Assembly: GCF_000400735.1 (NCBI RefSeq)
Contig: NZ_KE007365.1
Span: forward strand, 268,188 to 332,187
Reading direction: 5' to 3'
Length of the DNA: 64,000 nucleotides
Source of the DNA: Acinetobacter tandoii DSM 14970 = CIP 107469
GTDB taxonomy: Bacteria > Pseudomonadota > Gammaproteobacteria > Pseudomonadales > Moraxellaceae
The notes below the pieces were generated by a model, which did not search any database, was not told the DNA's origin, and saw only the letters and a list, made by a program, of their open reading frames with translations. Positions 2,522 through 13,182 of this stretch are shown here, one piece after another. The position numbers and the translations under genes are program-made. How positions within the stretch are numbered: the stretch's first letter is position 1; every line of letters begins with the position of its first letter.

Positions 2522-4357
2522 TTAAAAATTAACTTTAAATGCAACTGATGCAAAATCTCGATCATCAATAGTACTGAAATTATTGGAACCAAAAAAGTTT
2601 ACGTAAGCAAACTCTACATTATATTTTTGCTGATACGTTGCCGAAACAGCCGCAGTCAAACTCATTTGTCCTTCTTGAAAATTTTGGCTAAAGCCATATA
2701 GGTCGTGGCGAAACAACACACTTGGTATAATAACCATGGCAGGTAGCACATCTTTATAAGTCAGAGCGCCACGTAAACGGTATCCATATGACCATTGGGT
2801 AAAAAAGCCATCTGTGTTACAAAAACGTTTATTTAAATGGTCAATTTCATCATTGGATAGATGCGCTGTACCATAAGGCGTGCATTGATTTTCCTTGGTT
2901 TCAGGATTATAAGCACCAGATGACAGTTCACTGCGTCCAAATGCACCGACTCGACCAAAGCGATAGTTACCAATATCACCAATATGATTCATGGCCAATT
3001 CAGTAGCCCAATTCAGGGTATTCGCACCCAATACATTGTTCAAGCTATCACTGACACCAAATGAAAACTGTGTTACAGGTGCACGCACATAACCTTGTAA
3101 ATATTGTCCAAATTCAGCAGAAGTTCCTCTATCCGTCAGTGGCGTATTTTTGTCTAAGACCTGAGCATAAACAATATCTGTACCATTAAACTGCAAAGGC
3201 TGATTAGGTTTGTGGCTTAATTCACTAAAAACAGATGTCGTACCGACTTTTGCTGCCAAGCTCAGTCCATACATTTTGATATCTTCTGGATAGATTGAGA
3301 AAAATTGCGCTGTATTAAAATTTGTAGGGCCGACTGCAGTTACAGCGGTTCCATCAAAATTAGCATTGCGGCTATGATAATTTGCAAAATACAACCCAAG
3401 CTCAGCATTATTGAACTTAGGCAAAGTTTGTTTTAAAGAAAATCCATACTGTCCACTGTCTTTAGCATATCGACTTTCACTCCGCGGAATATAAGATTTG
3501 TTCTGTAAAGCGATATCAGACAGTTTATCACCTGGCATGACAGTAATCAGAATTGGTCCACAGTTTTCGGGTACGAAGTCTGAAATAGCAAAGAATGTTC
3601 CGCAGCCATCGACCACAGAGGGTCTAAATTTAAACTGATAGAAACCAGCAAACTTTAAATACGGGTTTATGCCTGCTTCAAAAGAAAACATTTCTGTTGG
3701 AATCACACGCTCTCTAGTATCACCACCTGGACGATTCATCGCAGCATAATCAAAAGCACTTACACTGTTTAATCCATTTTGGAAGAATTGTGATTTGCCC
3801 CACTGCAAAGTCTGCTTGCCTAGTTTCATACTCGCCGTTTGACCCTGATCTAAAGCAAAGTTTTTCCAGATATAAGCATCCCACAAGTCGATACCTTTAA
3901 AATTAGCAAGTCGTGGCCACGCAGAATCATCAAAGGCTTTTAAGTCACCTTCTCCAGTTTCATAGGCATGGTCATACCAATACTTTGCACTAACAACAGC
4001 ACCCTGCTGTTTTCCTGTTAAGCTGAGCTCACTCAAGCCTTTGATCACTTGAGATATTGCATCGCCTTCATTGAAATTCACGCGACCGTCATCACCATTA
4101 ATATCAATGCTATGACCATCTTTTCCAATGTAGTTCGCATCAGGCTTATAGACCAGTGAACTAGAAGCACCTTGAGTACTCCAATTTGTCCCATAGCTGA
4201 GCGACGTTTTGCTTTCAAGCTTCCATTCCCCATTTAAATCGAAACTTGCAGCGAAAACCTCACACATAGCCAAGCTCAGACTTAAACAAAGAACCGTTTT
4301 TTTCATCAGTGAAATATGATGATTTTGTCCATTCAAAGAAACAAAATAACTGACCAT
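2522..4357 (-). CDS. DUF1302-type outer-membrane protein
   Basis: The 611-residue exported protein opens with a signal peptide (KKTVLCLSLSLAMCEVFAAS, cleavage near residue 36). The mature part has many alternating beta-strand segments with aromatic girdles (GKQTLQWGKSQFF, FAGFYQFKFRP), and the last residue is a terminal phenylalanine (VAFKVNF), as in outer-membrane barrels. The pattern matches DUF1302 proteins, which usually occur with DUF1329 partners near genes for hydrophobic or aromatic compound use. No DUF1329 gene is present here. The chosen ATG has a good GGAG site 5 nt away. The internal ATG at 4306 would give a more compact signal peptide but lacks such a site. It lies beside the AraC-controlled hydrolase and may handle uptake of that pathway's substrate. 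Confidence 0.75.
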   Translation of the reverse strand: MVSYFVSLNGQNHHISLMKKTVLCLSLSLAMCEVFAASFDLNGEWKLESKTSLSYGTNWSTQGASSSLVYKPDANYIGKDGHSIDINGDDGRVNFNEGDAISQVIKGLSELSLTGKQQGAVVSAKYWYDHAYETGEGDLKAFDDSAWPRLANFKGIDLWDAYIWKNFALDQGQTASMKLGKQTLQWGKSQFFQNGLNSVSAFDYAAMNRPGGDTRERVIPTEMFSFEAGINPYLKFAGFYQFKFRPSVVDGCGTFFAISDFVPENCGPILITVMPGDKLSDIALQNKSYIPRSESRYAKDSGQYGFSLKQTLPKFNNAELGLYFANYHSRNANFDGTAVTAVGPTNFNTAQFFSIYPEDIKMYGLSLAAKVGTTSVFSELSHKPNQPLQFNGTDIVYAQVLDKNTPLTDRGTSAEFGQYLQGYVRAPVTQFSFGVSDSLNNVLGANTLNWATELAMNHIGDIGNYRFGRVGAFGRSELSSGAYNPETKENQCTPYGTAHLSNDEIDHLNKRFCNTDGFFTQWSYGYRLRGALTYKDVLPAMVIIPSVLFRHDLYGFSQNFQEGQMSLTAAVSATYQQKYNVEFAYVNFFGSNNFSTIDDRDFASVAFKVNF

Positions 4358-4633: not shown

Positions 4634-5221
4634 CTAAGAAACACTTTTAATTTGCAGAGCATCTAGCTGCAAAATCAATTGCTCCGCCAGAGGCCAATAC
4701 CCAAAACCAGAAGCGGGGTTCAAGTGTCCGACTATTCCTGCATTAACCAATTGACTTCCCCATATCTTCGCCATAGCTTCAACAGCTTGAAATGTTGCTA
4801 AATGATCATTGGTACTGGCAACCACAATGCTAGGAAAAGGTAGTTTTTGACTCGGTAATGGACACCAACCTTCTTTTTTAAGCGTCTCTGGACTTGGGTA
4901 ACTATCAGGCCAGCTTTCAGACAAGTCAGGTGGTGTAACTAGAAGTGCACCCTGAATGTTATATTGATACAAAGCAGCCCAATGTATCGTCATCAATACA
5001 CCCGCACTATGCGCCACCAAAATAACAGGCCCTTCAATTTTTCTGAGTTCCGCCTCAATCCGTGCCACACGGTTTGCGCAATTTAACTTCTCTGTTTCCA
5101 CGGGCGGTACTGAATAAACTTTACCTAAACGTGATGCCAGTATGGTTTGCCAATGATCCTCTACATGATCCCGTAACCCTGGAATAATCAAAACTGTCGC
5201 GTGTGTGAATATTTTTTCCAT
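4634..5221 (-). CDS. RBBP9/YdeN-type serine hydrolase
   Basis: A small 195-residue alpha/beta hydrolase. The nucleophile is S72 in VAHSAG, the acid D139 in ASTNDH and the catalytic base H166 in VGHLNPA. These positions and the short length fit the RBBP9/YdeN family of soluble serine hydrolases, whose natural substrates are mostly unknown. There is no signal peptide. It is transcribed divergently from the AraC regulator. The direct-repeat operator pair at 5312-5346 lies about 90 bp upstream of its start, in the same relative orientation and at nearly the same distance as the pair before the gene at 13067. It is therefore probably part of that catabolic regulon, perhaps cleaving an ester or amide. 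Confidence 0.78.
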   Translation of the reverse strand: MEKIFTHATVLIIPGLRDHVEDHWQTILASRLGKVYSVPPVETEKLNCANRVARIEAELRKIEGPVILVAHSAGVLMTIHWAALYQYNIQGALLVTPPDLSESWPDSYPSPETLKKEGWCPLPSQKLPFPSIVVASTNDHLATFQAVEAMAKIWGSQLVNAGIVGHLNPASGFGYWPLAEQLILQLDALQIKSVS

Positions 5222-5311: not shown

Positions 5312-5346
5312 CATTTCGCGACAATGCCTTTTCATTTGACGACAAT
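5312..5346. promoter_or_regulatory. Direct-repeat operator pair (predicted AraC-family site), hydrolase/araC divergon
   Basis: Two copies of CATTnnnCGACAAT occur at 5312-5325 (CATTTCGCGACAAT) and 5333-5346 (CATTTGACGACAAT), exactly 21 bp apart, or two helical turns. This is the geometry expected for an AraC-type dimer. A matching pair with the same period lies at 13149-13182 before the seven-gene cluster. Confidence 0.7.
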
Positions 5347-5487: not shown

Positions 5488-6504
5488 GTGGTTCCTCTCG
5501 CGCATACAGCTATGCTCAAAAACTATTTAAATGTGAGCCAACAGTTAAACCTCAATCCTTACCATTTATTGTCAAATGTCGGGCTTTATCCTACTCAACT
5601 CAATGATCCAAAATTACGAATTTCTGTAGACAAAGCCATTCAGCTTTTAGAACAATCTGCTCAGGAGAGTGGTTGTGAAACTTTTGGCTTACATATGGCA
5701 GAACAACGCCAAATTGCAGATTTTGGGGAACTAAGCTTATTGCTCAATTATCAGCTAACCTTGCGTGATGCTTTACAAACAATTGTTCGCTATCGAAACC
5801 TCATTAATAATGCTTTAGAAATATATATTGAAGAAGTTGGCCATACAGTCATTATTCACATCGAAGTGATCTCTGCTACCCAGCAATATAGTCGCCAAGC
5901 AATTGAACTCGCTCTAGGAATCACACACCGCTTTTGTGCTGCTTTATTATCACAGAAATGGCGCCCACTCAGTATACACTTCACACATGATGCTCCGCAG
6001 AATTTAAACATTCATCAACGGGTCTTTGGTTGTTTACTCGAATTTGGTAGTGAGTTCAATGGTATTGTTTGTACATCTTCTGAATTGGATAAAGCAAACC
6101 CACAAGCCAATATTGCAATGGCAGATCATGCCCGACGTTATCTCGATATTGATATATTGCAACATGAAAATGAATCTTCAACTGTTTTTGAAGTTCGTAA
6201 AAGTATCTATGTTCTTTTACCTATGGGACGTGCGACCATTGAACAAGTTGCTCAAACACACGGCGTGAATGTACGTACACTGCAACGTAAATTAGAAACT
6301 GCTGAAACTAGCTTTAGCATTTTAATCAACGATGTACGTCGCACACTAGTGGTTCGTTATTTGAATAACTTAAATTACTCACTGGCTCAAGTTTCCGACA
6401 TTTTGGGCTATTCTGTACCCAGCTCATTTACTCGTTGGTTTATTAGCCAATTTGGTGTTTCACCAACAATATGGCGTAATCAACAAAACCCTTCTATTAA
6501 GTAA
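5488..6504 (+). CDS. AraC-family transcriptional regulator
   Basis: The 338-residue protein has an N-terminal effector domain of the arabinose-binding AraC type (about residues 10-200) and a C-terminal double helix-turn-helix (about 235-335). The DNA-binding part shows TIEQVAQTHGVNVRTLQRKL and the second helix pair VSDILGYSVPSSFTRWF with the final GVSPTIWR. It starts with GTG, preceded by AGAAGGA 8 nt away; ATG at 5512 is a weaker alternative. Regulators of this layout often activate lipid, alkane or amino-acid catabolic genes in response to the pathway substrate. The identical operator architecture at 5312-5346 and 13149-13182 points to it as activator of both its divergent neighbour and the cluster at 13067-6581. 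Confidence 0.88.
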   Translation: MVPLAHTAMLKNYLNVSQQLNLNPYHLLSNVGLYPTQLNDPKLRISVDKAIQLLEQSAQESGCETFGLHMAEQRQIADFGELSLLLNYQLTLRDALQTIVRYRNLINNALEIYIEEVGHTVIIHIEVISATQQYSRQAIELALGITHRFCAALLSQKWRPLSIHFTHDAPQNLNIHQRVFGCLLEFGSEFNGIVCTSSELDKANPQANIAMADHARRYLDIDILQHENESSTVFEVRKSIYVLLPMGRATIEQVAQTHGVNVRTLQRKLETAETSFSILINDVRRTLVVRYLNNLNYSLAQVSDILGYSVPSSFTRWFISQFGVSPTIWRNQQNPSIK

Positions 6505-6580: not shown

Positions 6581-7609
6581 TTAGAACAGCCAATGCATTA
6601 TGGTTAAGACCAGCAAAACAAGGAAAACACTCTCACCTATCATTAAAAGGATCGGCTTAATACCCACCGTTGCGAGTTCTTTCAATTGTGTTTTCATACC
6701 CAAAGCACTAATTGAAATAATCAAGCACCAACGAGATAACTCATTAATACCACCTTGCACCATAACTGGAACCCAGCCAGAACTATTAACACAAGCAAGA
6801 ATTAGGAATCCCACAGCAAACCATGGTAATAAAGGTGGTCGCTTTCCATCTGATGAGACACCTTGCATACGTGTAATCGTGGCAGCACAAACAATAACAG
6901 GTAACAACATAGCCACCCGCATAAGCTTAACTACAGTTGCGGTATTACCCGTTTCCGCGGACATACTATAACCTGCACCCACCACTTGAGCGACATCATG
7001 AATAGTTGCCCCTAAGAAAATACCTGCTTCTTTTGGAGATAAAGCCAGCCAGTGGGCAATCATTGGATATACAATCATTGCCAAAGTAGACAGTGCAGAT
7101 ACACCAATGACTGTAAATAATGTCGCTTTTTCCTTATTGGGATGATTTGGTAATGCAACAGAAATTGCGAGTGCCGCTGACGCACCACAAATCGCGGTAG
7201 CTCCTCCCGTCAACATACCAAATAGTTTCTGAAAACCGATCCATTTCGCAACGAATATAGATACGGAAATCGTCACAATTATGAGTATGATCACCAATGC
7301 CACCGGTTGCCAACCTAATGCTGTAATTTGTCCTAATGTAATCCGCATACCAAGCAAAGCAATACCGACCCGCATGACTGTTTTGGCAGTAAATTCTATG
7401 CCTGCTTTACACTTTCCTTCCACAGCCAGAAAATTCAATCCCATACCTAACAATAACGCGAACAACATTACAGGTGCGCCATAATGTTCCGAAAGAAAGC
7501 TTGCTGCTGCAGCGGCTACTAAACTGACCGTGAACCCTGGTGTGAGTTCTCGGATTTTTTGATGCAGACCAATTTGTTGCATATAATCAAGTTGACTCAA
7601 ATTACTCAC
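6581..7609 (-). CDS. YeiH/UPF0324-family membrane exporter (putative sulfate/sulfite exporter)
   Basis: A polytopic inner-membrane protein of 342 residues with about ten hydrophobic segments. It carries the family's GMGLNFLAVEGKCKAGIEF and TGGATAICGASAALAI segments and ends in a cluster of helices. UPF0324 (YeiH) proteins are annotated as putative sulfate or sulfite exporters. Close relatives sit in sulfonate-degradation operons, but direct transport evidence is scarce. The GTG at 7609 is preferred because GGAG lies 6 nt before it, inside the end of the Rieske gene. ATG at 7624, overlapping that gene, is the alternative. It is the last gene of the cluster, so release of inorganic sulfur from the substrate is a reasonable inference. 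Confidence 0.8.
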   Translation of the reverse strand: MSNLSQLDYMQQIGLHQKIRELTPGFTVSLVAAAAASFLSEHYGAPVMLFALLLGMGLNFLAVEGKCKAGIEFTAKTVMRVGIALLGMRITLGQITALGWQPVALVIILIIVTISVSIFVAKWIGFQKLFGMLTGGATAICGASAALAISVALPNHPNKEKATLFTVIGVSALSTLAMIVYPMIAHWLALSPKEAGIFLGATIHDVAQVVGAGYSMSAETGNTATVVKLMRVAMLLPVIVCAATITRMQGVSSDGKRPPLLPWFAVGFLILACVNSSGWVPVMVQGGINELSRWCLIISISALGMKTQLKELATVGIKPILLMIGESVFLVLLVLTIMHWLF

Positions 7610-7610
7610 A

Positions 7611-7928
7611 CTATTCTCCAGCATTCAACTTAATAAATACTTGTTCGCCAATGACTTCTACAGGGTATGAGGCAACTTTTAGTTGTGTTGAATTGATCAA
7701 ACATCCATTTGTTAAATCAAAACGCAAACCATGTGCACAGCACTGAATTACACGCCCGTCTAATTTTCCTCCAAATAATGAAGCTCCTTGATGTGGACAT
7801 CGATCATCAATGGCATAAAATTGAGCTGCAATGTTAAATAATGCCAATGCCTTATTCCCTATGATTAAAAAGGCTCGTTCACCTAGCTTAGGAATTTTTT
7901 CTTGTGGTACTTCAAAACGAACTGTCAT
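7611..7928 (-). CDS. Rieske [2Fe-2S] ferredoxin
   Basis: A 105-residue soluble Rieske protein. The cluster-binding motifs are C-P-H in DDRCPHQG and C-C-A-H in QCCAHGLRFDL, the C-x-H and C-x-x-H pair of Rieske ferredoxins. There is no membrane anchor, which separates it from the bc1-complex subunit. Such proteins pass electrons to oxygenases or reductases. There is no large Rieske oxygenase subunit in the cluster, so its partner is unclear; the flavin-free quinone oxidoreductase at 12081 is not an obvious one. The start overlaps the end of the FrnE-like gene by 4 bp (ATGA), indicating translational coupling. Confidence 0.88.
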   Translation of the reverse strand: MTVRFEVPQEKIPKLGERAFLIIGNKALALFNIAAQFYAIDDRCPHQGASLFGGKLDGRVIQCCAHGLRFDLTNGCLINSTQLKVASYPVEVIGEQVFIKLNAGE

Positions 7929-8578
7929 ACGGCTTGTCCTTGTGTAGCAAGAACCTCAAGCATTGCCTGATAAAGCACATCTGCTGATTGAGCCCCTGCA
8001 ATCGCAAAACTTTTATCAAATACAAAATATGGCACGCCCTTTCCTCCTGTATTTGCCGACAAAAATGGCGTCGTTGTTGTATTACTTATATTGTTCAATT
8101 CTTCTTCAAGGACTCCTAAATAGGCTGCAATCCTCTTTAGAACTGTTACATCCCCAATATCTTCTGAATGCAAGAAATAGGCTGAAAATATTCCTTCTAA
8201 TAGCCGATTCCGTAACATCAGATCGCCCTTAGTTTCGATATGCTTAATTAACTGATGAGCTTTTCTTGTATTCGGCATACGTTGAATACGATCAAAATTT
8301 ATCTCTAAGGAAACAGCTTTTGCAGCTTGACGTACTTGATTCTGACGCATTCGAACTGCGGTAATACTCCCTAATCTTTTTAAATAGAAAGCTTGAAAAG
8401 GAACACCTTCTTCTGGAATTTCAGTTAATAACTGTACGCCTTTCCATTGCAATTTGACTTCTACATCAGGATCGCTCTGTTGTAGCAATTGAATGGCCGC
8501 TTCTAATTGCCGTTTGCCAATCAGACACCAAGGGCAAATAAAATCAAAATACACATCAATATGAATCAAACGAGACAT
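7925..8578 (-). CDS. FrnE/DsbA-family thiol oxidoreductase
   Basis: The 217-residue protein has a thioredoxin-like start with CPWC (residues 15-18, DFICPWCLIGKRQLE), an all-helical insertion and the cis-proline region GGKGVPYFVFDK. This is the FrnE/2-hydroxychromene-2-carboxylate isomerase branch of the DsbA superfamily. No signal peptide is visible, so it probably acts in the cytoplasm. The two-cysteine motif favours redox or glutathione-linked chemistry over the isomerase reaction, which uses a serine at this place. It overlaps the MFS gene by 1 bp (TGATG) and the Rieske gene by 4 bp, so all are co-translated. Confidence 0.83.
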   Translation of the reverse strand: MSRLIHIDVYFDFICPWCLIGKRQLEAAIQLLQQSDPDVEVKLQWKGVQLLTEIPEEGVPFQAFYLKRLGSITAVRMRQNQVRQAAKAVSLEINFDRIQRMPNTRKAHQLIKHIETKGDLMLRNRLLEGIFSAYFLHSEDIGDVTVLKRIAAYLGVLEEELNNISNTTTTPFLSANTGGKGVPYFVFDKSFAIAGAQSADVLYQAMLEVLATQGQAV

Positions 8579-9909
8579 CAGCGATCACCTGTATTAAATA
8601 ACTGAGTCGGTTCCAATTTGGTTTGTGCTTCAAAACGAGTGATGTCTCGAAGATAGTGACGTTTAGCATAGAAAAAAACGGCTGCCGCAGCGATGCACAT
8701 TAAAGGCATAAGTTGAAAGGCGCTGTGTAAGCCAATCACATCTGATATCTTTCCAATAACCAAAGGACCTAAAGCCAAACCAAGAAAATTATTGGCTAAA
8801 GTTAAGGTTGCAAATGCTGTGCTATGTACAGAATTATGGGTCAGGTTTGCGACCATCGCACTAGAAGGACCATTGGTTCCAAGTGCAATAAACATCCCAA
8901 TACAGATCATGAGCAGTTGCCCATTTCCAGCAGGCATCCCAAAGGCAATTGACAACAGAACACAACCAATCAAGCAAAATGCGATTGCTAGGCTCACTTT
9001 GCGATCAGGTCGATTACGCCCCAAACGATCACACAACATTCCACAAAGAATGGTGCCAATTGCACTACTCAGCACAATCACCGCAGCGATAACACCTGCT
9101 CTATCTGTACTCATGCCATAAAATCGATTGAGGTAACTCGGCAACCAAACGATGACTGTGCCCCCAACAAATAACTGCAAACCGCTGCCAATATAGGTTG
9201 CAAGCACAGAACGGCTGGAATAAATAGATTTTAGTGGTTGTTTAAATTGATCAGGTTTGGCTTCAGACTTAATCTTACGGGACTGAATTCCTATCTTTTT
9301 CTCTTTGACGACCATTGGGTATAAAAGTGCTAAACACAACCCAAACACCGCCATGCCACCAAATGCCCAACGCCAACCATAGTGTTCAGCCATAACACCA
9401 CCTAAAGCCATGCCCAAGAAGGAACCAAACACTCCACCTGCCATAAATGCACTGGCTAATGTTGCACGCATTTCACGGGGAAAGACGGCTACAACTACCG
9501 CAATCCCTACACTGCCATAAGCTGCTTCACCGACACCCACCATAAAACGGGCGATAAACATCTGTTGGTAATTTTCCGCAATTGCACAACCAAGCGTTGC
9601 CAAACTCCATAACACAGCCATAAAAGTGAGACTTTTAATTTTGCCGAAACGGTCAGCCAATATAGATAAAGGTAATGTTAACAATCCAACCATTAAAGCG
9701 ACGATGCCACTTAATAACCCGAGCTGACTATCTGACAAGGCCCATTCATTTTTAATTAAAGGAAAAACCGCATTAAGCACTTGGCGCGACATATAGTCCG
9801 AAATAAGCAAACCAAAAGTTAAAGCAAAAACTAACCACGCATACTTACGTGGTATGTCGACTGATGTATCTAAGCCATCTGTAGAACTGGCATACTGATG
9901 TGCACCCAT
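8578..9909 (-). CDS. MFS transporter
   Basis: The 443-residue protein shows twelve hydrophobic segments and MFS signatures: DRFGKIKSL after helix 2, GVGEAAYGS in helix 4, and a second-half repeat CDRLGRNRPDRK. The layout resembles the anion:cation symporter (ACS) branch that imports organic acids, including aromatic and sulfonated ones. AAGGAGG lies 4 nt before the start codon. It heads a tightly coupled block with the FrnE-like, Rieske and YeiH genes. A terminator-like hairpin at 9954-9982 separates it from the upstream BKACE gene, so this block may also have its own promoter in 9983-10055. It probably imports the pathway's substrate. Confidence 0.88.
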   Translation of the reverse strand: MGAHQYASSTDGLDTSVDIPRKYAWLVFALTFGLLISDYMSRQVLNAVFPLIKNEWALSDSQLGLLSGIVALMVGLLTLPLSILADRFGKIKSLTFMAVLWSLATLGCAIAENYQQMFIARFMVGVGEAAYGSVGIAVVVAVFPREMRATLASAFMAGGVFGSFLGMALGGVMAEHYGWRWAFGGMAVFGLCLALLYPMVVKEKKIGIQSRKIKSEAKPDQFKQPLKSIYSSRSVLATYIGSGLQLFVGGTVIVWLPSYLNRFYGMSTDRAGVIAAVIVLSSAIGTILCGMLCDRLGRNRPDRKVSLAIAFCLIGCVLLSIAFGMPAGNGQLLMICIGMFIALGTNGPSSAMVANLTHNSVHSTAFATLTLANNFLGLALGPLVIGKISDVIGLHSAFQLMPLMCIAAAAVFFYAKRHYLRDITRFEAQTKLEPTQLFNTGDR

Positions 9910-9953
9910 ACGACCTCCTTGTGTTTCTTATACTTTCTAATTCTCATTCTTCA

Positions 9954-9982
9954 TAAAAATTGTGCCTGATCCGCCGCACAAT
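9954..9982 (-). terminator. Intrinsic terminator between BKACE and MFS genes
   Basis: On the minus strand ATTGTGC pairs with GCACAAT around a 10-nt loop, and TTTTT follows. It lies about 75 nt after the BKACE stop codon. It suggests attenuated or separate transcription of the two halves of the cluster. Confidence 0.6.
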
Positions 9983-10055
9983 CAACTTAGTATCTTAGCC
10001 AAGCCAACATTCCATTTGACTCGGCTGTTGTTGCGTTCGTTTGATACGTTAACCA

Positions 10056-11159
10056 TTAACCAACTTTACGATTTATGTCATATGACGTTTGGTCAAATAT
10101 AATTTCACCAGTACGTTGAGGAACCCCTTTTTGACCTACTTTTCGGTTCGGTGCCATACCATTGGCGAGTAAGGTCTCTTCAATACTGTTGTATTGCACG
10201 CCTATGCGATAAATCTCACGTGCCTCTTTGCCATTTGCTACTTCACGACCAAGCTCATGCGCAATACGAACAGTTTGTTGAATTTGCTGCACAGAACTAA
10301 AACGCTCACCACGATGATCGATAATTGTGTCCTCATTACCTACACGCGCATGCAAACCCATCGCCATAGACATGGTGTTAAATGGCAAAACGTTTTTAAG
10401 CAATGATTCTGAGGTCAAAGTACAGCCATCTGGGACACGGTGAATAAAGTTAAAGAAGTTAAATGGATTTGGACCATCAAAACCGCCACCAATACCAATC
10501 CATGTCAGATTCAATGGCCCCATGTATAAACCTTTACGCACCATCCGTTCCAAGGTTTCTAAACCATGCATACCAGTTAATTGAAAGTGCGGCTGAATGC
10601 CATTTTTACACAAACGCTTTAAGTGCTCAGTTAACCATGCCGGTCCTGCGGGTACAGTCATTTCGGCATATGCTTCTTGAATGGCAGGATGTTCAAGTGA
10701 TGTACCTTTCAAATATTCAGGATACAGAAGTTCCATAATATTCATTTGCGTAGTGTTCACTGCAACCGTCACCTGATCTGGCTTTGGGGTTAGTTCTGCG
10801 AGCATATGGCGCGTATCATCACTAAGCCAAAGGGCAGCTTCACCTTCACTTTCAGGTGCAAATGAAATTGAACCACCGACCTGAATAATCATGTCAGGTA
10901 CAGCTTCACACACACCTGCAATCAGTTCATTAAACTTAGATAAGCGTTTTGAGCCTTTGCCATCAAGTTCACGCACGTGCAAATGAAGTACCGATGCACC
11001 TGCTTCATAACACTCCACCGCTTTTTGGATTTGCTCATCCATGGTTACTGGAATATCTTCTGGAAAATCCTCTGGCATCCACTCTGGGCCGTAAGGTGCA
11101 ACCGTAATAACCACTTTTTCCATATTTTCTGGGTGCAAAGAATCATCAAAGAATTGCAT
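10056..11159 (-). CDS. Beta-keto acid cleavage enzyme (BKACE / 3-keto-5-aminohexanoate cleavage family)
   Basis: A 367-residue TIM-barrel protein of the BKACE family (formerly DUF849). The zinc-binding H-x-H lies in VLHLHVRE and the conserved barrel-end segment HARVGNEDTI is present. These enzymes condense a beta-keto acid with acetyl-CoA, releasing acetoacetate and a CoA ester. The acid varies widely, from 3-keto-5-aminohexanoate to dehydrocarnitine, so the substrate cannot be read directly. It is longer than the usual 270-310 residues, with extra sequence in the middle (about 120-180). The start at 11159 has GAGGAG 6 nt before it; ATG at 11165 overlaps that site. Its presence implies that the pathway passes through a beta-keto acid. 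Confidence 0.85.
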   Translation of the reverse strand: MQFFDDSLHPENMEKVVITVAPYGPEWMPEDFPEDIPVTMDEQIQKAVECYEAGASVLHLHVRELDGKGSKRLSKFNELIAGVCEAVPDMIIQVGGSISFAPESEGEAALWLSDDTRHMLAELTPKPDQVTVAVNTTQMNIMELLYPEYLKGTSLEHPAIQEAYAEMTVPAGPAWLTEHLKRLCKNGIQPHFQLTGMHGLETLERMVRKGLYMGPLNLTWIGIGGGFDGPNPFNFFNFIHRVPDGCTLTSESLLKNVLPFNTMSMAMGLHARVGNEDTIIDHRGERFSSVQQIQQTVRIAHELGREVANGKEAREIYRIGVQYNSIEETLLANGMAPNRKVGQKGVPQRTGEIIFDQTSYDINRKVG

Positions 11160-11219
11160 GTGCATCTCCTCGTATAGTGTTCAAATTGTGAATTGAGTAA
11201 AATGTTCTAATTCTTAAAC

Positions 11220-12068
11220 TTAGTAAGTGGCATTACCAATAATGCCCGCGCGTTCCATTTTGCGGTGACATGCGGGATAGTCCATGACAGCATAATGCTG
11301 TGTGCTACGATTATCCCAAATGGCAATACTGTTTGGCTTCCAACGCCAGCGAACTTGGTACTCTGGAATATAAGCCTGTGAAATTAAATAACGCATTAGA
11401 TCAGCAGCACCCGGATTGGCATCTTGTCCAAAACGCACCATATCTTTGGTATGAAAATTACTGAAGTGCGTCGTAAATGCATTCACGTACAGAATTTTTT
11501 CGCCTGTTTCTGGATGGGTACGAACCACAGGATGCTCTGCATCTGGAAACTGTTGTTTCAGAGCTAACCGTTTTTCAATCGGCATCGCTGCACCAAAGCT
11601 AGCTTCTATACTGTGGTAAGCGCGTAAATTGGCAATTTTGGCCTTAACATCATTTGGTAAATTTTCATACGCCATCACCATATTCGTCCACATGGTGTCG
11701 CCACCAACTGGAGGACACTCAATACAACGCAGGACACAACCCATTGGTGGAACTTTGCGCCAACTGGCATCGCTATGCCACGCGTTTTCATAGCGATCAA
11801 TTGGACTTTCTGGACTTTTATAAATTTGCACCAACCCCGGATGCTCTGGATGACTTCCCACCGCAGGATGGTCTTCCAACTGTCCAAAACGCTCTGCAAA
11901 TGCCACATGCTCAGCACGAGTTAGATTTTGATCTCTTAAGAACAAAACACGATGTTTTAAAAGAAGAGCGCGAATTTCAGAGAACAGACCATCATCATGA
12001 ATTGCATCTGCCAGATTTATCCCGCTTAGTTCTGCGCCAATATGGCAGCTTAATTGTTCAATTTGCAT
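11220..12068 (-). CDS. TauD/TfdA-family 2-oxoglutarate-dependent dioxygenase
   Basis: The 282-residue protein carries the iron-binding triad H98-x-D100 (WHSDASW) and H258 (STQHYAV), with R269 or R273 placed to bind 2-oxoglutarate. The N-terminal IGAELSGINL and the DNRSTQHYA motif are typical of the TauD group. These enzymes hydroxylate carbon next to a leaving group. In taurine and alkylsulfate users this releases sulfite or sulfate, and in TfdA it cleaves an aryl ether. Only 12 bp separate it from the upstream oxidoreductase, and AAAGGA precedes the start. With the YeiH-type exporter in the same cluster, a sulfonate or sulfate ester is a sensible first guess for its substrate. Confidence 0.88.
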   Translation of the reverse strand: MQIEQLSCHIGAELSGINLADAIHDDGLFSEIRALLLKHRVLFLRDQNLTRAEHVAFAERFGQLEDHPAVGSHPEHPGLVQIYKSPESPIDRYENAWHSDASWRKVPPMGCVLRCIECPPVGGDTMWTNMVMAYENLPNDVKAKIANLRAYHSIEASFGAAMPIEKRLALKQQFPDAEHPVVRTHPETGEKILYVNAFTTHFSNFHTKDMVRFGQDANPGAADLMRYLISQAYIPEYQVRWRWKPNSIAIWDNRSTQHYAVMDYPACHRKMERAGIIGNATY

Positions 12069-12080
12069 ATGAAATCCTTT

Positions 12081-13067
12081 TCAAATTACAAAAATAGAAG
12101 AACCTGTGGTTTTACGTGATTCCAAATCACGATGTGCCTGTACTGCGTCTTTCAGTTCATAACGTTGATTAATTTCAATTTTGATTCGACCACTTGCGAC
12201 ATGATCAAACAGTTCATTGGCTAAAGCTTGTTTCTCCACTGGGTCGGCAATGTAGTCTGCAAGTGCTGGACGAGTAATATATAATGAGCCTTTTAGTGCC
12301 AGCAAAACTGGGTTGAAGTCTGGAATCGGCCCTGATGCCGTACCAACGCACACCATTAAACCACGACGTTTTAATGAGTCTAAAGACGACATAAAGGTAT
12401 CTTTACCCACACTGTCAAAAACGACATTAACACCAACACCATTGGTTAACTCACGTACACGCTCTGCAACATTTTCATGGCTATAGTTAATTACATGATC
12501 ACACCCGTGTGCTTTGGCAATCGCAGCTTTTGCATCCGAAGAGGTTGTGCCAATAACCGTTAAACCGAGTAACTTTGCCCACTGCGCCACAATCAAACCC
12601 ACACCACCTGCCGCAGCGTGTAATAAAATTGTATCTCCTGCCTTAAAGTCATAAATTCGACGCATTAAATAACTAGCAGTTAAACCGCGCATGGTCATTG
12701 CAGCTGCTGTCTCGCAGGAAATTTCTTCTGGTAATTTGATTAAAACATTTGCTGCAATTAAACGTGCCGTACTATATGCACCTAAGGTATTTAAAAACCC
12801 TGTGTAAGTTACACGTTCCCCGACTTTAAAGTCGGTCACACCCTCACCCACAGCTTCAATTACACCTGCAGCTTCTACCCCCATACCATTGGCTAAAGGA
12901 ATTTGATAAGTACCATCACGAAAATAAGTATCAGCATAGTTCAAACCAACAGCTACATGTCGCAGTCTTACTTGCCCAGTATCCGGCTCACCGACTATTA
13001 TATCCTCGTAACGCATTACTTCAGGGGTTCCTGTTTCATAGAACCTGATTGCTTTATTCATCGTCAT
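12081..13067 (-). CDS. Zinc-free quinone oxidoreductase (MDR family)
   Basis: The 328-residue protein is a medium-chain reductase of the QOR type. The N-terminal catalytic part contains GLNYADTYFRDG and GVEAAGVIEAVG. The NADPH-binding Rossmann fold has LLHAAAGGVG (about residues 150-160). The zinc-ligand cysteines of true alcohol dehydrogenases are absent. Members reduce quinones or alpha,beta-unsaturated carbonyls with NADPH. It is the first gene of the seven-gene minus-strand cluster, with the operator pair about 80 bp before its start. A likely role is reducing an unsaturated or quinone-like intermediate, or general carbonyl detoxification. Confidence 0.85.
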   Translation of the reverse strand: MTMNKAIRFYETGTPEVMRYEDIIVGEPDTGQVRLRHVAVGLNYADTYFRDGTYQIPLANGMGVEAAGVIEAVGEGVTDFKVGERVTYTGFLNTLGAYSTARLIAANVLIKLPEEISCETAAAMTMRGLTASYLMRRIYDFKAGDTILLHAAAGGVGLIVAQWAKLLGLTVIGTTSSDAKAAIAKAHGCDHVINYSHENVAERVRELTNGVGVNVVFDSVGKDTFMSSLDSLKRRGLMVCVGTASGPIPDFNPVLLALKGSLYITRPALADYIADPVEKQALANELFDHVASGRIKIEINQRYELKDAVQAHRDLESRKTTGSSIFVI

Positions 13068-13147: not shown

Positions 13148-13182
13148 GCATTAGACGACATTGATTTAGCATTTTACGACAT
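13148..13182. promoter_or_regulatory. Direct-repeat operator pair (predicted AraC-family site), catabolic cluster
   Basis: GCATTAGACGACAT (13148-13161) and GCATTTTACGACAT (13169-13182) are 21 bp apart and share CATTnnnCGACA with the pair at 5312-5346. On the minus strand the proximal copy lies 4 nt before TTGTCA, placing a bound activator next to RNA polymerase. Confidence 0.7.

Follow-up and report, generated by a model that had tools for sequence, protein, structure and literature searches.

A conserved gene cluster of Acinetobacter tandoii predicted to be a catabolic regulon for an organic acid

Background

Enzymes of the DUF849/BKACE superfamily are known from the breakdown of carnitine via 3-dehydrocarnitine, from deoxyribonate catabolism and, as Kce, from the fermentation of lysine. 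Dioxygenases of the TauD/TfdA family include E. coli TauD, the alkylsulfatases AtsK and Rv3406, and TfdA and RdpA. In Advenella, the catabolism of 3,3'-dithiodipropionate and 3-mercaptopropionate leads from an organosulfur acid to propionyl-CoA and the methylcitrate cycle, with a disulfide-active protein and with sulfite as a product. Here we describe a gene cluster that brings a TauD-type dioxygenase and a DUF849 enzyme together. It lies in a stretch of 64,000 nucleotides from Acinetobacter tandoii DSM 14970 = CIP 107469 (contig NZ_KE007365.1, positions 268,188 to 332,187), which is called the window below, and all positions refer to it.

The gene set very probably takes in and breaks down an organic acid. 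We predict an AraC-controlled catabolic regulon in which the dioxygenase would make a beta-keto acid and the DUF849 enzyme would cleave it, and we put the chance of this prediction at about even. An earlier note, made from the letters of the window, knew of no standard pathway with this set, and no description of it was found in the open-access literature searched. The cluster is apparently an undescribed, conserved catabolic regulon built from known enzyme families.

Gene set and shared operator

The seven minus-strand genes reported at 6581-13067 are present as open reading frames, and their families were confirmed by Pfam, with all seven proteins scoring over the Pfam cut-offs. The operon opens with QOR of the NADPH:quinone oxidoreductase family (PRK10754; 12081..13067), which matches Pfam ADH_zinc_N and the NADPH:quinone reductase model NF008024 (360.8 bits, curated cut-off 348). 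It is followed by a TauD/TfdA-family Fe(II)/2-oxoglutarate dioxygenase (11220..12068; PF02668), which has a near relative in PDB 5VN6 (531 bits), and by an enzyme of a divergent DUF849/BKACE subfamily (10056..11165; PF05853, 204.8 bits, cut-off 24.8). The remaining genes encode an MFS transporter (8578..9909; MFS_1, best NCBIfam match TIGR00893 with a score far under the cut-off), probably an importer of an organic anion, a DsbA/FrnE-like protein with a CPWC motif in the translation (7925..8578; PF01323, DSBA), a small Rieske [2Fe-2S] ferredoxin (7611..7928; PF00355) and a YeiH-like membrane transporter (6581..7624; Cons_hypoth698, PF03601, under the curated TIGR00698 cut-off). The tight packing claimed earlier, with many genes overlapping or within 12 bp, holds for four of the six junctions: QOR and TauD are 12 bp apart, and the overlaps are 1 bp (MFS/FrnE), 4 bp (FrnE/Rieske) and 14 bp (Rieske/YeiH). 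It does not hold for TauD/DUF849 (54 bp) and DUF849/MFS (146 bp).

The unit exceeds these seven genes and comprises about ten. An AraC-family regulator with Pfam domains Arabinose_bd and HTH_18 is encoded on the plus strand (5488..6504) and accompanies the cluster in all 16 Acinetobacter loci mapped. On the minus strand, a PF06821 serine hydrolase (ABH; 4634..5221) opens a second transcription unit with an operator upstream, and a DUF1302 outer-membrane protein (2522..4357; PF06980, 457 bits) is probably a channel for the substrate.

Both units are preceded by the direct repeat TGTCGnnnAATG with 21-bp spacing, on the minus strand, once at 13149..13181, 81 bp before QOR, and once at 5312..5344, 90 bp before ABH. 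The pattern TGTCGnnnAATG-9-TGTCGnnnAATG was taken from aligned upstream regions of QOR and ABH in 16 Acinetobacter loci; as it was built from part of the loci, its presence at the cluster is partly by construction, while its scarcity elsewhere is not. The window holds two copies without any mismatch, where chance would give 0.06 with up to three mismatches allowed, and the whole genome (G000, 4.08 Mb) has only two perfect copies; at up to two mismatches one further match and one match of the backward control are found. In 28 whole genomes the pattern gave 54 matches in 27 of them, and the backward-pattern control gave 0 in all 28. For forty-eight of these matches the coordinates place a DUF849 gene of this kind, whole or as a fragment, no more than about 12 kb away; two stand at another TauD operon and four elsewhere. 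Among the operator matches, those at G063:C1:680143 (L176) and G005:C1:67869 (L177) are alike, with no reference-set gene beside either, and others occur at G005:C228 and G010:444935.

Across the loci described below, and counting genes with enough upstream sequence, a degenerate form of the operator stands no further than 260 bp ahead of QOR in 82 of 105 cases and of ABH in 70 of 90 (the ABH misses include the two alphaproteobacterial loci), as compared with 0 of 3900 shuffled regions. Other genes rarely carry it: MFS 0/103, YeiH 0/79, AraC 0/110, DUF1302 0, DUF849 1/118, TauD 3/114 and CoA ligase 2/25; it precedes both of two TonB receptors in the 120 loci. Judged from sequence, one operator is common to the units QOR-TauD-DUF849-MFS-FrnE-Rieske-YeiH and ABH-porin in gammaproteobacteria, as expected of an AraC-regulated regulon. 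The AraC protein presumably binds this predicted operator, and the unit is apparently switched on as one.

Conservation of the cluster

An alignment scan with the DUF849 protein confirmed at least 585 relatives, of which the best 80 were kept, so the mapped loci are biased to the most similar. Reference proteins were mapped onto 120 loci (the window and L022-L140), some of them on cut contigs, and the frequencies are not population estimates. Twenty small Acinetobacter loci with short flanks (L002-L021) are outside this tally; they have TauD in 20/20, MFS in 19/20 and QOR in 17/20.

Every one of the 16 wide-flanked Acinetobacter loci has all seven genes together with ABH, AraC and DUF1302, and the DUF1302 gene comes after ABH each time. 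The 64 loci from other gammaproteobacteria (Pseudomonas, Aeromonas, enteric bacteria) are nearly as complete, with QOR in 63, TauD 64, DUF849 64, MFS 63, FrnE 59, Rieske 61, YeiH 57, AraC 56, ABH 53 and DUF1302 51. The 23 betaproteobacterial loci have DUF849 in 23, TauD in 19, AraC in 17, QOR in 16, and MFS and ABH in 14 each, and more sparsely Rieske (7), FrnE (4) and YeiH (2). Both alphaproteobacterial loci carry the core and YeiH. Among seven loci from Actinomycetota, QOR, TauD, DUF849 and AraC occur in 6, MFS and ABH in 5, and YeiH in 2 (one at 33% identity); these counts include L119, with no DUF849, ABH or AraC match in the fetched stretch, and L121, with no TauD, QOR or ABH match. The remaining 8 of the 120 loci include five fetched by TauD alone. 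The core QOR-TauD-DUF849-MFS-ABH-AraC spans gamma-, beta- and alphaproteobacteria and Actinomycetota. The gene order is conserved along with the set, and the co-occurrence of the set is far from chance. The neighbourhood check proposed in the earlier note thus turned out in its favour, as all seven families recur together in the 16 Acinetobacter loci and nearly all of the seven in the 64 others.

In less biased draws the DUF849 subfamily was present in 22 of 119 genus genomes and 17 of 398 phylum genomes, the own genome included. The phylum draw gave 23 places in 17 genomes; the partial matches G497:C3 and G314 and the own genome are not among the fetched regions. TauD shares the fetched stretch (at most 20 kb) with DUF849 in 14 of 18 phylum-draw regions, sometimes several kb apart, and the four regions without it are L127 (a 5.4-kb contig), L130, L139 and L140.

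No near copy of the whole region was found by megablast in the plasmid collection. A Tsukamurella record called plasmid 21 (L026) has ruvC-ruvA-ruvB, secD-secF and a RelA/SpoT gene beside the cluster and is therefore probably a chromosome piece. One genome (G118) has one near-full-length and two partial DUF849 matches on contigs C6, C8 and C10, with YeiH and operator matches on two contigs, and holds a further copy of the cluster, which is broken or split. In Caballeronia zhejiangensis (L022, L108), DUF849-MFS-Rieske is separate from TauD and adjoins a PhaC-type synthase, MaoC, an acyl-CoA dehydrogenase and a thiolase. In G497, DUF849 is directly followed by genes for a nitronate monooxygenase and for the alpha subunit of a Rieske oxygenase (L138, 6002-8913), and this alpha subunit is a possible partner for the Rieske ferredoxins elsewhere.

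The dioxygenase and the DUF849 enzyme

The residues that define the TauD/TfdA family are kept in the dioxygenase, H98 and D100 in 114 of 116 orthologs (2 gaps) and H258 and R269 in all 116. A second arginine, R273, and H67 are also conserved, and we take them to correspond to the anion site of E. coli TauD. Since this arginine and histidine are kept, an acidic group is likely near the carbon that is oxidised. After 5VN6, the next best structure match is E. coli TauD itself at 177 bits. The score with the taurine dioxygenase model NF007104 is 236.3 bits, under the curated cut-off of 313.

Membership of the second enzyme in the DUF849/BKACE superfamily follows from its PF05853 score and from the TIM-barrel fold of a model that was used solely to confirm the fold (mean pLDDT 68.5, 83 residues below 50). 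Compared with 2y7e, the model gives E 1.9e-16 and TM 0.83 by target, 0.63 by query. In structure the model agrees best with Kce and other DUF849 proteins, and cis-epoxysuccinate hydrolases match it as well. The zinc ligands H61 and H63 are present in 117 of 118 orthologs (one gap) and E278 in all 118, as are R274 (118/118) and D279 (117/118). The window protein furthermore has a C-terminal tail of about 17 residues over which few close relatives align (L003, L004, L034); most end near residue 352.

Two arrangements bear on the function of the pair. In L133 the corresponding position, in an operon of near-standard make-up (no Rieske match) with SCOT inside, is taken by a DUF849 subfamily that keeps the catalytic tyrosine, and a complete change of DUF849 function is for this reason disfavoured. 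In Pseudomonas benzenivorans and P. sagittaria (L061, 5719-7669; L069, 5872-7822) the TauD-DUF849 pair is duplicated, with its own operator, before the standard operon; the DUF849 copies are 60-64% identical to each other and the TauD copies 79-80%. This duplication as a pair suggests that TauD makes the substrate of DUF849 and that there are two related substrates or two stereoisomers.

Parallel and sister clusters

A parallel cluster in G101 (L182) consists of AraC, a 54% identical TauD and a cupin, then an 83% identical TauD with an operator (two mismatches) in front. On the opposite strand are an MhpC-type hydrolase, a CoA ligase, MFS (75%), Rieske (56%), YeiH (80%) and a DUF1302 gene in two pieces; DUF849, QOR and FrnE were not found in this stretch. 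The order AraC-TauD-cupin-TauD is the same in G118. The nearest match of the cupin is PDB 3EBR, labelled uncharacterized; 2,4'-dihydroxyacetophenone dioxygenase comes next, and the likeness of the cupin to an acetylacetone-cleaving enzyme is weak. The cupin cluster is rare (2 of 42 Acinetobacter genomes), and the cupin has no match in the genome of the window. It is possibly a second way to cut a beta-dicarbonyl; a dioxygenase for beta-dicarbonyls or hydroxyketones at DUF849's position fits a beta-dicarbonyl intermediate. As DUF1302 appears to be split into two open reading frames and the start of the Rieske protein shows none of the Cys-Pro-His present in the window protein, the parallel cluster may be decaying.

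Additionally, a sister cluster DUF849-SDR-CMD-MFS-DUF1302-YeiH-AraC adjoins beta-oxidation-type genes in the Acinetobacter genomes G039, G044 and G073 (L180, L181, L183). L180 also has a 3-oxoadipyl-CoA thiolase above its cut-off, an acyl-CoA dehydrogenase and SCOT.

Neighbouring genes and the predicted pathway

The neighbour counts given here depend on reference proteins picked from the loci themselves. Genes for SCOT A and B were found in the fetched stretch of 11 of 80 gammaproteobacterial loci, in several positions (L030, L042, L061, L065, L069, L080, L081, L088, L096, L099, L133), and in L096 and L133 they separate YeiH from the following cluster gene without a change of strand. With 1-6 SCOT copies above the cut-off per genome (9 genomes), the chance expectation is about 0.3-3% in 21 kb, where related genomes are not independent. 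Two Streptomyces loci (L112, L118), out of seven from Actinomycetota, have an acetoacetate-CoA ligase behind ABH. Genes for propionate disposal adjoin the cluster in Caballeronia grimmiae, where prpB-prpC-acnD-prpF come after Rieske with a 16-bp gap, and in Aeromonas, where L096 has all four prp genes opposite QOR and L080 has prpB and prpC. Directly behind the cluster porin of G039 an operator (two mismatches) precedes CoA ligase-prpB-prpC. Both prp genes are above their curated cut-offs, and since a second prpC elsewhere in this genome is 99% identical, the propionate-disposal pair appears to have been duplicated into the regulon. Repetitive open reading frames resembling a CRISPR array adjoin the recruited prpC copy (L179, 11054-14540). 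The neighbouring SCOT, acetoacetate-CoA ligase and prp genes are suggestive of acetoacetate and propionyl-CoA as products.

The predicted pathway would run as follows. The substrate would enter through DUF1302 in the outer membrane and then through the MFS carrier in the inner membrane, and ABH may hydrolyse an ester, lactone or thioester bond. With O2 and 2-oxoglutarate, TauD would oxidise a carbon near the anionic group of the substrate and so give a beta-dicarbonyl (beta-keto) acid. The DUF849 enzyme would cleave this acid with acetyl-CoA into acetoacetate and an acyl-CoA. Acetoacetate would be converted to acetyl-CoA, and the acyl part would end at least partly as propionyl-CoA, either directly, the keto acid then being 3-oxopentanoate, or after beta-oxidation. 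QOR, Rieske and FrnE could be auxiliary redox proteins that perhaps keep the dioxygenase iron reduced, which is conjecture, and YeiH would move an anion.

The wider neighbourhoods also bear on a simple beta-oxidation of an unactivated acid, where TauD would hydroxylate C3 twice without a leaving group and DUF849 would replace CoA-dependent thiolysis. CoA ligase genes in 25 of the 120 loci, acyl-CoA dehydrogenase in 6 and thiolase in 4 agree with such a route, as does the sister cluster, which has an SDR and no recognised TauD. A double oxidation by one such enzyme would, to our knowledge, be unusual, and ABH and YeiH would be left without a role; we regard this explanation as unlikely.

Several observations weigh against the predicted regulon and pathway. 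Most beta- and actinobacterial loci showed no operator ahead of QOR or ABH, neither Rieske nor FrnE gave a match in the two alpha- and seven actinobacterial loci mapped, and QOR, Rieske and FrnE are without a compelling role. SCOT was not found in 69 of the 80 gammaproteobacterial loci, and prp genes stand near the cluster in no more than 3 of the 120 loci and, besides these, in G039, so that the SCOT and prp links may be opportunistic. The DUF849 protein of the window has Thr197 at the position of the tyrosine of canonical BKACEs; among 118 members this residue is Thr in 93, Tyr in 11, Ala in 6, Gly in 5 and Ser in 3, and Gln195 replaces Glu in 114. In one study (PMC12871164), all BKACEs are said to carry the catalytic tyrosine (Tyr145 of Kce, Tyr173 of PdKce), and a DUF849 enzyme with Phe in its place is said to do different chemistry. 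Another (PMC4922564) reports that the family includes two groups, G6 and G7, that are not BKACE.

These replacements speak for an alternative in which the DUF849 protein would be a zinc-dependent hydrolase or decarboxylase, like cis-epoxysuccinate hydrolase or groups G6 and G7, and the acetoacetate genes would adjoin the cluster for another reason. The subfamily moreover has a long stretch after strand 3 that is absent in Kce, and the structural matches include cis-epoxysuccinate hydrolases. The best of these matches are nevertheless to Kce and further DUF849 proteins, SCOT or acetoacetyl-CoA ligase recurs in several lineages, and the tyrosine-keeping subfamily has the same place in L133 with SCOT inside the operon; we consider this alternative rather improbable, yet worth keeping in view. 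The earlier note held that BKACE implies a beta-keto acid and an acetyl-CoA-dependent cleavage. The acetoacetate-activating genes beside a minority of loci speak for this and the missing catalytic tyrosine speaks against it; a BKACE step is plausible from the gene context.

A carnitine-like substrate comes to mind because BKACE acts in carnitine breakdown. No carnitine dehydrogenase was noticed among the annotated neighbours, where none was searched by model, and no result singles out any of the substrates weighed chemically (dialkyl sulfosuccinate, jasmonate, rhamnolipid, beta-diketone, gonyol, thiodipropionate). The KCE of a Citrobacter carnitine paper is about 270 amino acids long by the coordinates printed there, shorter than the window DUF849 protein.

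The YeiH-like transporter and the sulfur question

The earlier note had linked the cluster to sulfur through TauD and YeiH, possibly with a sulfonate or sulfate ester as substrate. In this version TauD would oxidise a sulfonate or sulfate-ester carbon at C3 of a carboxylic acid to give sulfite or sulfate and a beta-keto acid, and YeiH would export the sulfur anion, so that the acid would serve as carbon source and not for sulfur scavenging. The TauD family and the anion-site arginine and histidine, with the roles we assume from E. coli TauD, are in keeping with it. So is the attachment of YeiH to the cluster: all 22 Acinetobacter genomes with the cluster have a YeiH match, and in a test of 20 of the 97 genomes that lack it, 19 gave no match and the other a remote one at 30%. 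YeiH is also present in the alpha- and some actinobacterial loci, as compared with only 2 of 23 betaproteobacterial loci.

The curated models do not bear out the sulfur link. YeiH scores 167.7 bits against the sulfate-exporter cut-off of 232.6 (TIGR00698), its Acinetobacter pragensis ortholog 162.5, and TauD is likewise under its cut-off. The sister DUF849-SDR-CMD-MFS-DUF1302 cluster (G039, G044, G073) has a different YeiH, about 33% identical, which passes the cut-off in L180 (267), and neither TauD nor any other desulfonating gene was recognised there. YeiH thus seems to go with DUF849 and the porin and not with desulfonation. Neither a sulfite oxidase nor an alkanesulfonate ABC importer came to notice in the listed neighbours, where no model search for them was made. 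We find desulfonation doubtful. A scavenging system for sulfur starvation like tauABCD or ssu, for which only the name TauD would speak, is very improbable: the AraC regulator with its own operator, uptake by MFS or TTT, and the CoA ligase, SCOT and prp genes that accompany some loci make up a carbon-catabolic set.

A fuller form of the predicted pathway, which we offer tentatively, would be a widespread, undescribed aerobic route of catabolism found from Actinomycetota to Gammaproteobacteria. The dioxygenase would expel a substituent to leave a beta-keto acid, the Tyr-less DUF849 enzyme would convert this to acetoacetate and propionyl-CoA (or the cupin would cut it), and the YeiH-like transporter would export an anion, organic or inorganic, different from the sulfate that its family is assumed to carry.

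Comparison with known systems

The module occurs in common bacteria of soils and plants; the figure of 585 or more counts DUF849 relatives, not whole clusters. The database names taurine dioxygenase (for 5VN6), 3-keto-5-aminohexanoate cleavage protein and putative sulfate exporter probably mislead, and the route would be the first function assigned to the DUF849 subfamily, PDB 5VN6 and the YeiH-like transporter. Since the regulon is defined by its operator, substrates could be screened with a reporter. Pseudomonas fluorescens FW300-N2E3 (L103), which carries the cluster in CP012830 between 4581954 and 4603000, is presumably covered by public mutant-fitness data.

We know of no TauD, DUF849 or acetoacetate in the dithiodipropionate route of Advenella, and the acyl-CoA dehydrogenases tested here score under the 3-sulfinopropanoyl-CoA desulfinase cut-off. 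The putative sulfate exporters of the YeiH family (TIGR00698) share PF03601 over nearly the full length of the window protein; unlike them, it stays under the family cut-off, and its close homologs occur only with the cluster or its parallel in the Acinetobacter genomes tested. With 2,4'-dihydroxyacetophenone dioxygenase and the acetylacetone-cleaving cupins, the likeness is a related cupin that stands, without DUF849, in the parallel cluster beside TauD, YeiH, MFS and Rieske; it is absent from the genome of the window, and its nearest structure is the uncharacterized 3EBR.

The dioxygenase shares with TauD, AtsK, Rv3406, TfdA and RdpA the family, the iron triad, and the 2-oxoglutarate and second arginine. 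It differs from E. coli TauD in its score (177 bits, against 531 to 5VN6), in falling under the taurine-dioxygenase cut-off, and in that no sulfur-scavenging context was seen. We know of no counterpart of QOR, FrnE, Rieske or YeiH in the BKACE pathways, and the window DUF849 enzyme, which lacks the tyrosine, shares about 25% identity with a usual, Tyr-bearing one. As in those pathways, a DUF849 zinc TIM-barrel stands beside an oxidising enzyme, a transporter and a regulator, and acetoacetate is predicted, the oxidising enzyme being a 2-oxoglutarate dioxygenase here and a dehydrogenase there.

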